Origin: Echinarachnius parma
Lineage: Eukaryota > Echinodermata > Echinoidea > Clypeasteroida > Echinarachniidae
Length of the DNA stretch: 64,000 nucleotides
Assembly (NCBI GenBank): GCA_037951105.1
Contig: JBAMJV010001834.1
Coordinates: 62,001-126,000 of the forward strand
Direction of reading: 5' to 3'
This document shows, piece by piece, positions 14,501 to 17,500 of this stretch (position 1 is its first letter; every line of letters begins with the position of its first letter). The translations under genes and the position numbers were made by a program. Under the pieces are notes generated by a model, which saw only the letters and a list, made by a program, of their open reading frames with translations, made no database searches and was not told where the DNA came from.

Positions 14501-17500
14501 GTGTTAAAGGAGACGTCCGGACGATTTGTAAAAAATCCTACCATAATCTACATAAATCAAAGACCAAAACTACCTACTTTTAATTAAAAAAACACCCTCC
14601 AAACCTGTCACAATCGAATTTTTAGTGTCACTAGTTTTGAATCGTAACTGTTCACTTTCTGTACGCTAGCGAGAAAGATCACGTGACGGCGTGGCGTATC
14701 AGCCTCACTTTGCGCGCGCTACCGCGGTGAAGCGGCTGCTATATTTTGCTTCACTTCGCTTGCTAAAATGCCGATGTGTCAAGCGTTTGGATGTTCGAAT
14801 AAGCCAGGCAATGGCCAGAAAAGGAGTTTTTTCGCCATTCCCAACCCAGCAAATGAGAGGGAAAGGTGCGCTAGATGGCTCGCCAACATTGGAATTGACA
14901 CATTTGACGTCAAAACGTACAAATATTGCAGGAATCGAGTCGTCTGTGAGGATCATTTCGAGCCGGAGTGAGCACTAGAAGGTCTGCCAGAGTTTCGGCA
15001 GGCCCCGCGTTGCGAGAGAGGTAGCTAGCTAGCGCGCCAACTGCCTTGTAAGTGACTCTTAAAAAGTGCCGAAAAGGAACGAAAATGCAAGATTATCACG
15101 ATCACACCTATTCTAGACTATCTCTTATTTTACTTACATGTTTGCAAGGCTTTTAAAACAAATACGAGAACAATTACCTGCAAAAACGGCAAAAAAATGA
15201 GCTGATAATCTCCCGATAATTTCCTAACTCTCTCGGACCAGATGAACTGAACCTAGCGCTCTTTTGTTGCCAATTTGCGAATGGGGTAGACTACGTGTAT
15301 GATACGCATACTACACGTTATATGATATCGCAGCCCAGAAATTGGCAACGTTCGCAAACGATCTGATTTTCTGCTATTTTCAATCGCTTAGTGAAAGTCT
15401 CGCTCGCGTAACAAGCGCTTGAGTTTTGAATGTTTTACTTCGGAAAAAGTAATATTTTGCTCAAAACTGAGGTAATTTTGAATGTTCTGTAACTATATTT
15501 CCGTAAATATTGTTACATAAATCCAGCAAAGCATCGATACTTGTCATTTTATTGCCGTATAAAAAGATGAATTTGAGCGCGAAACACTGCATTTTTGCAG
15601 ACCGCTTTATGAGATTCGATCGGATAAAGCCGCCGCGCAGCAGCGGTTCAGCTGCCTGTGTTGCGCTGGCGGGCGGCCGGACGACCGCGGGCTGCAAATT
15701 TTGCGGCAGAGGGCTGATGAAAGTGAGGCTGCTACGTCATGCGCAATGCATCCTGGGACAGATTCTACTCGAGGCTGCTCGCGGCCGATTCGAACAAGAA
15801 GAATTACCTTATTTTTTCGAAAACTGATTGTGAATGATTCTGATGGTCTTTTCTCATCGGGAAAAAGGTTATAGACTCCTAAAATATTGTACTTTCACCT
15901 GGAAACTGCTGAAAATCGTCCAGACGTCCCCTTTAACTATACTTCTGCCTGTAGTGGTGGAGAAGGGTCAGCACACAGGAGTAAGGGTGAAGGAGGGGGG
16001 GGGGGGGGGGCAACATGTCATCAGAAAAAACAGTTTGTTTTTTGGTATTGATTTAGTATAAATTATGCTACATGGGAGATTGCTGAATTTGCAATGAGAT
16101 TGAAACTTGGACAAATTCAGGACTAGGGGTTGTCCCAACTGCCATTTCCCCACAAGCTTAGCCACTTCCTAATAGCCAACCAGGGAAAACAAACTCCCAT
16201 TTCCCTGAGCCAACCAAGAATGGTTCGCGAGGTACTGTTATTGAATATATTGTATCTCACTCTAGGAATTGTTGACAGTCTTTTGAGGAGCTAGCTCCCT
16301 GGAAATCAGACAAAGTAAAGACTCAAAGTTTGTCAACCCGAAACAGACAAAGCCTGTGTTAAAGTTTGTTGACCCTGTGTCACTGCCATAGATTGCAGCC
16401 AGAGTATTTTCAGGGAGAATAGTTTTAAATGGTTTAATGGTAACTTATTAAACTCCTTGAGTGCCAGTGTCACATATTTGTACCACACAATACACACAAA
16501 TACCATAGACCTGTAAAATCCCTGCCATTCAAAGTGCTAATTGTCTAACCAGCCTGATGTGTCTTAGTGGCTCTGTATGCTCCCCAGGGAGTTGAAATTG
16601 AGTGTTCTCCCATTTCCCTGGTGCGATGGTTTGATTTGTACCCAGCAACCAGGGGTAATAATAGTCGGGACTGTTTATATAGTGTTTCAAAATAGTTCAC
16701 AAAGTGATATACATTATACAGGTCTGTTTTTTCTGCTCACGTCATCTCATTTTGTTTTCTTTTTTGATGACGGCAAATGGTATGGTATAAGAGACTGAAA
16801 ACATGAGTGCATGTACATGCACCACACACACACACGTAGTTACATGTACATGTAAAACTATTGAAGTGTGTCAGTCTCCATGACTAACCAATATTTGCAG
16901 TCAAACAGTGTGCCAAACTACCTAGAATAATGAGCAAAACAAATGTGGTATATTTTTAGCTTTAAAGGAGCTGCGCAGTTGTTCTTGTGGTTAAGTTTTG
17001 TTCTTCTGATACTAATAGATTGAGTATTAGTATATAAGGGCATGATCACATCATTAACAAAGAATTAGATTCTCAAATCACCATAGAGTTAATACAGGGC
17101 CCATCAGGTTCCCATAGGCAATGGGTTAAACTGAATTTGCTTACCCAGGACTCAACACTAGCAGGGCTCAACACTAGGCTCAACACTAGCACTTGCCCTA
17201 TTGCCCGGGGCAAGTAACAAATGATGTAGTTTGGTTGCTCAATCGGGGCAACTAAATTATTGGTCAACTAAGTAATAGAGAATAATTTAATTTCTCTTAG
17301 GTTAAAATCCCATCTAGAAGTTAGCGGGCAAGTAAATCTTTCTGTTCAGGCGGAACAAGCCAATAAGGAAAAAAGTCTAAAGAGGCTTGGCTTTCCTCTG
17401 AGCATGATACTGTGACATTGTGCCCCCAATAAATCAAACAAACAAACATGTTTGTAATGAAGGCAACACATTGTATGCAAAACTAGTCTCCCACGCTCTG

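Follow-up and report, generated by a model that had tools for sequence, protein, structure and literature searches.

Kolobok transposons, as characterized in PMC9587614, target TTAA, have 5'-RR termini and encode a DDE transposase with a C/DxxH motif; their hosts include hemichordates, one lineage (KolobokP) carries an endonuclease, and AG..CT termini are stated for them in contrast to piggyBac (PMC9587614). For the T2-MITE and XKol (Kolobok) elements of Xenopus, the account in PMC6004289 gives autonomous partners with a THAP domain plus DDE. The P-MITEs of Anopheles gambiae are proposed in PMC1562414 to derive from internal deletion of a THAP-bearing master, with the interior filled from elsewhere. 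In the available parts of the Kolobok, THAP and MITE literature we found no description of a Kolobok MITE with a THAP piece.

The element considered here, E1, lies in a 64-kb window (the whole stretch of DNA analyzed, C1833:62001-126000) of a 1.2-Gb genome in 14,790 contigs, which we searched for relatives. An earlier note on this stretch had proposed a TTAA-bounded element carrying a THAP DNA-binding domain at 14504-15936; both the element and the reality of its THAP frame are confirmed. The features of E1 are as follows.

14504..15936, + strand: E1, assigned as a non-autonomous Kolobok element; the span includes both TTAA target sites; inverted termini, at least 39 other genome copies
14508..14527, + strand: left terminal inverted repeat AGGAGACGTCCGGACGATTT, from a TTAA-anchored pair
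14694..14713, + strand: left subterminal motif, consensus ACGTAGCASCCTCACTTTGC, candidate transposase-binding site, from a motif search
14768..14971, + strand: truncated THAP frame, 67 codons plus TGA, C2CH present and AVPTIF box absent (Pfam)
14965..14971, + strand: end of homology to a DDE-bearing relative (after 14964), with the GTGAGC start and the stop, from the alignment to C10865
14972..14973, + strand: site of about 250 bp of extra DNA in a long form (7 of 30 loci ranked by THAP; with the extra segment as query, 40 rows scored)
15718..15737, - strand: right subterminal motif, inverted, from the motif search
15913..15932, - strand: right terminal inverted repeat AGGGGACGTCTGGACGATTT, from the same TTAA-anchored pair

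TTAA stands at both ends of E1 (14504-14507 and 15933-15936), and its 20-bp inverted termini match at 18 of 20 positions. Among the 30,933 TTAA-anchored pairs of the window one exceeds this score (20) and one ties it (18); across 20 dinucleotide shuffles, the top pair per shuffle matched at 13-15 of 20 positions. The terminal letters are AG...CT, and the two ends start AGGAG and AGGGG, that is, AGGRG. A Pfam scan (E<=10) of all 17 frames of at least 40 aa in or overlapping the element found no catalytic (DDE) domain, in line with the earlier note. The THAP frame was alone in passing a curated cut-off, and a match to FtsL in another frame (E=0.023) stayed below threshold.

The window holds other repeats. 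The termini of piggyBac elements start CC, and a TTAA-anchored pair at 316-937, with perfect 20-bp inverted termini starting CCTGTGCC, is presumably piggyBac-like from its CC start. Adjacent TTAA-anchored pairs at 54830-55396 and 55437-55881 have AGGG termini matching at 15 of 20, a level also reached in shuffled windows. Long tandem arrays occupy 37295-38698 (a unit of about 57 bp, 24 times) and 26613-27192 (a 35-bp unit, 16.6 times).

With E1 DNA as query, the best 40 of 2617 candidates were scored and gave 42 matches. Besides E1, these are 39 near-full-length copies at 97-99% identity and two partial copies. TTAA is present at both match ends in 35 of the 39 other copies; of the rest, L037 and L040 have match ends trimmed beside a TTAA, L046 has an altered right TTAA and L047 a shortened right end. 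The 40 copies, E1 included, show 38 distinct flank pairs, which makes almost every one a separate insertion. Of 56,964 aligned cells, 625 (about 1.1%) deviate from the majority base. When the E1 THAP protein served as query, about 110 of the rows from the best 150 of 276 candidates were E1-type at 84% identity or more, by our own count.

At 10166-10561, 12725-13110 and 20016-20376 lie three MITE-like elements that are related to one another, are bounded by TTAA and have AGGGAYYTAGTAAC-type termini. A terminus of this type adjoins the TTAA of the E1 copies L018 and L019 and both sides of L031, with similar ends at L025 and L044; these junctions hint that one element may insert at the TTAA of another.

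The THAP frame has 67 codons (14768-14968), followed by a TGA at 14969-14971. PF05485 matches it at E=3.9e-10 with 40.8 bits (cut-off 23.9) over profile positions 1-60 of 87, and the C2CH residues and the P, W and F of THAP all fall within that part. The claim of a 67-residue C2CH THAP domain therefore stands as to the domain but not as to its completeness, for the C-terminal part with the AVPTIF box is missing, an absence compatible with a deletion derivative. E1 read in all six frames contains three AVPTIF-like strings, one on the + strand and two on the - strand; the + strand string, near 15800, was considered as a second THAP half and rejected, being in another frame and having no THAP context. 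A search of solved structures with the E1 THAP returned THAP1 at E=0.031, which is good for the fold name only; PHROGs gave E values of 0.023 and 0.055 only, and among viral contigs there were six pattern matches to THAP relatives, none confirmed.

We used a complete 99-residue THAP domain as query to score the best 150 of 278 candidates. Full 1-99 matches were found in the C10865 group (6), the C1 group (6), C4857 and C1477, with a 2-99 match in C2627, and a few more distant rows end at most three residues short of the domain end. Among these scored candidates no E1-type row reaches AVPTIF or extends beyond residue 77, and many share the TGA of E1. One apparent copy with a longer THAP, C14534 (L103; query 1-77), proved to be an E1 copy of the usual kind, with a frameshift immediately ahead of the TGA and no further part of the exon; C2914, C114, C11250, C769 and other E1-type rows read past the TGA with no match beyond residue 71.

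The nearest complete THAP to that of E1, among the THAP candidates scored, is 76% identical, in an exon with a full frame found at six loci (150 of 276 scored). One of these, C10865 (L079, L080), shares 75.6% identity with E1 in the THAP part, carries a complete THAP (profile 1-87, E=9.2e-17) and has, 4-5 kb beyond it, a 584-aa frame with the DDE exon. In 427 scanned residues of that frame there is a weak match to a Mutator-type transposase (E=6.8e-6; its 25.7 bits fall just short of the 26.5 cut-off). Its 5' order is like that of E1: a TTAA with an AG-rich start, the subterminal motif and the THAP exon, here followed by the DDE exon. Upstream of THAP, E1 130-215 aligns to C10865 with a local score of 47, where 500 shuffles reached at most 31. 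Of 102 TTAA starts in L079 the best fits the E1 terminus at 14 of 20 positions (the next at 11), and it sits where the global alignment places the element end. This left end is known from one copy only, as L101 and L102 diverge from it some 150 bp inside this point and L100 deeper inside; a right end was looked for in C10865 and not found.

In three more families, C1477, C2627 and the C1 group, a THAP exon and a DDE exon share a contig at a distance of 5-7 kb. Across all four families CGDGRCDSPG, ATDRH, DVWH (DxxH) and ExxH blocks are invariant, in agreement with the C/DxxH motif as PMC9587614 describes it for Kolobok transposases. In the C1 group an identical 715-aa transposase frame is present at seven loci (L087-L093; contigs C1, C849, C1721, C4095, C4463, C4817 and C5065), from which this group was probably active recently. 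Set against the first locus, four of the remaining loci reach 99.95% identity over 4155 bp, a fifth 99.5% over 3834 bp and the sixth 97.5% across 4158 aligned positions. Behind the 715-aa frame there is a tandem array. The left boundary, TTAA|AGC, is common to two copies with different flanks, and the subterminal motif was not found in the stretch of the left end that was searched; the C1 group thus need not be the partner of E1. Judged from these frames, the genome that holds E1 also has THAP-Kolobok elements whose long transposase frames are open.

The earlier note had suggested looking for a full-length relative, and the outcome is divided: there are THAP plus DDE families, and none has the exact termini of E1 among the candidates scored (150 of 276 and 150 of 278 for THAP, 40 of 2617 for E1 DNA). 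Its Kolobok-type reading, with the DNA-binding end kept and the catalytic end lost, is supported by such THAP plus DDE relatives as C10865. Since no DDE appears in any of the 17 frames, and DDE is present in four related families, E1 is filed as non-autonomous only. Of Kolobok traits it has the TTAA duplication, 5'-RR/YY-3' termini and a THAP with C2CH (profile positions 1-60), and lacks the AVPTIF box and an encoded DDE with C/DxxH; of T2-MITE traits it has TTAA, AGGRR termini and many copies. By its sequence E1 belongs to the THAP-bearing Kolobok superfamily, as a non-autonomous member with an internal deletion.

A possible objection is that other transposons share some of these traits: TTAA is also the piggyBac target (PMC9587614) and THAP also occurs in P transposases (PMC7776569), so that E1 might be a piggyBac or P-type element that resembles Kolobok. 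We find this hardly credible. The termini are AG..CT, the Kolobok type in contrast to piggyBac, and none of the 17 frames has a piggyBac transposase domain; the target site is the 4-bp TTAA, not 8 bp as for P; and the 5' part of E1 is related to a THAP-DDE element with DxxH.

The subterminal motif, allowing up to 6 of 20 mismatches, is confined, within the 64-kb window, to both ends of E1 and both ends of a sister element, E2, and it recurs in the left part of the C10865 relative. It is in our inference the best candidate for the transposase-binding site. A weak second match in C10865 (6 of 20 mismatches) lies inside the DDE frame and is probably due to chance. E2 and the host exons around both elements are located as follows.

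9031..9142, + strand: ETNPPL-like host exon, upstream of E1 and E2 (tblastn; frame)
9160..9867, strand not assigned: sister element E2, 708 bp, termini and subterminal motif related to those of E1, no THAP (40 rows of 1627 candidates)
18719..18881, + strand: next ETNPPL-like exon (tblastn; frame)

The ends of E2 are related to those of E1, with a weaker match to each other than the ends of E1 have. Six frames of E2 read by eye contain no THAP, and the 40 rows scored from 1627 candidates, one of them E2 itself, all show 97-100% identity across 705-708 bases; because E2 is high-copy without THAP, the THAP piece is unnecessary for amplification. The left end of E2, which is a Kolobok-type MITE, lies about 17 bp after the ETNPPL-like splice donor.

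The host exons, which we take to be ETNPPL-like, were found by tblastn with a human ETNPPL sequence. Both elements lie in the one phase-1 intron between the exons near 9031-9142 and 18719-18881, E1 in sense. That placement would suit the proposal that splicing at the GTGAGC, which starts at 14968 and overlaps the end of the THAP frame, lets E1 copies supply host genes with THAP exons. As PMC2203978 and PMC10027918 present it, THAP domains have probably moved repeatedly between transposons and host genes. Two observations go against exon seeding at the GTGAGC. First, homology between E1 and C10865 stops at E1 position 461 (14964), mid-exon, and in C10865, L100, L101 and L102 the THAP exon continues HFEPHCFEED...AVPTIF. 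Since the E1 frame stops inside the exon of its relatives, before AVPTIF, the GTGAGC is not an inherited donor; on this alignment it lies just past the truncation point, not at an ancestral exon boundary, and the earlier idea of a donor marking the end of the domain has to be given up. Second, at this site, and for this site alone, the frame would exit in phase 2 within a phase-1 intron. We regard exon seeding as very improbable.

The fate of the THAP frame among E1 copies bears on whether it has a function. The earlier note had held that a frame broken in all other copies would count against its reading; instead 30 of the 39 other copies have it open and nine have it broken or without an ATG. 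With copies about 1% diverged, this openness is expected, and H63 or W37 is gone from 6 of the 30. Among 40 changes in the frame, which give modest power, 7 are synonymous, where the mutation spectrum of the element itself predicts 9.8 (P = 0.89 for at least 7). This count leaves out 2 of the 40 rows (L032 and L045) whose flanks are the same as those of another copy; with all 40 rows kept there are 7 synonymous changes (10.5 expected) and 34 non-synonymous ones (32.2 expected). The frame has 0.199 distinct substitutions per site, and outside it the figure is 0.209. No purifying selection on the frame is thus detectable among the copies with these 40 changes. Between E1 and the C10865 THAP exon, by comparison, pS is 0.83 (saturated) and pN 0.14: the exon was evidently constrained while in a transposase, and no constraint is visible among E1 copies.

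Copies with a broken frame have moved. L010 and L011 share a stop and 15 derived differences, and L023 and L034 share a frameshift and 19; in both pairs the flanks are unrelated over 300 bp either side, so both lineages transposed after the frame was broken.

The long form of the family keeps GAGTGA as in the short form; if the long form is ancestral, we infer that the THAP truncation predates the short form. Seven long-form copies picked by THAP identity have 0-1 amino-acid changes each, an effect of ascertainment, as they were ranked by that identity. When ranking was by the extra DNA segment, only 12 of 40 kept residues 1-67 without a stop (matched by eye) and 6 of 40 had no THAP row (150 of 276 THAP candidates scored), and we dropped the idea of long-form THAP conservation. 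Five contigs (C11407, C586, C5830, C1571 and C5758) match the extra segment from position 25 on, with no THAP row (150 of 276 scored); they may be a further deletion class or the source of the segment.

It had been proposed that the truncated THAP peptide represses its own family, which by analogy with the P-element KP protein it would do by occupying the terminal binding sites. The 30 open frames are in keeping with this, and the THAP ATG of E1 has A at -3, the start-context rule. There is also precedent: small P elements often can encode repressors, such as the 207-aa KP protein (PMC7776569, in the part that treats them). The frame is neutral among E1 copies, however, its open versions include those lacking H63 or W37, and broken-frame copies have spread too. 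The E1 frame also stops after a partial domain and has no leucine-zipper-like region as in P transposase; it lacks the complete DNA-binding domain and conserved reading frame of a KP-type repressor, and no scored E1-type row reaches AVPTIF. A repressor role is on this evidence unlikely, and repression in the manner of KP highly improbable. A version in which the peptide, its frame open in many copies of the family, is translated in the germ line and competes for the subterminal motif common to E1, E2 and their partner, so that all three would transpose less while no selection shows on single copies, has an equally slim chance of being right.

The explanation in which we have high confidence is that E1 is an internally deleted non-autonomous Kolobok, mobilized in trans, with the THAP frame as a passenger remnant. 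Of the layout seen in its THAP-DDE relative, E1 retains only the 5' part as far as the middle of the THAP exon, to which interior sequence and a matching 3' terminus are joined. A THAP-Kolobok transposase from elsewhere in the genome would bind the subterminal motifs, cut at the E1 termini and insert the element at TTAA. The THAP frame would be carried along, open in young copies from the short time elapsed and not from selection. E1 is a new family of a known kind, an ordinary transposon relic. Its interest lies in a two-phase record of exon decay in a mobile element, with strong constraint in the transposase and none visible after truncation; for a young element, an open frame that matches a domain does not count as evidence of a function. 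The C1 group, with its seven identical transposase frames, offers a starting point for Kolobok transposition tests.

E1 resembles the Kolobok elements of PMC9587614, as described there, in TTAA and 5'-RR termini, and its relatives have the DDE with C/DxxH; unlike the autonomous members, E1 has no transposase. Internally deleted P elements (PMC7776569, as far as its account goes) are like E1 in being short copies that retain the N-terminal THAP end of the transposase, but they belong to another superfamily with an 8-bp target site, against the 4-bp TTAA of E1; KP, at 207 aa, is a repressor, whereas the E1 frame codes for 67 aa with an incomplete THAP and evolves neutrally. The P-MITEs of Anopheles gambiae, by the description in PMC1562414, are of the P superfamily, whereas E1 is Kolobok-type and keeps a THAP piece, of which that description makes no mention for the P-MITEs. 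T2-MITE and XKol, beside which we set E1 by description only (PMC6004289), share with it TTAA, AGGRR termini, a non-autonomous character and many copies, and E1 keeps a truncated THAP frame.
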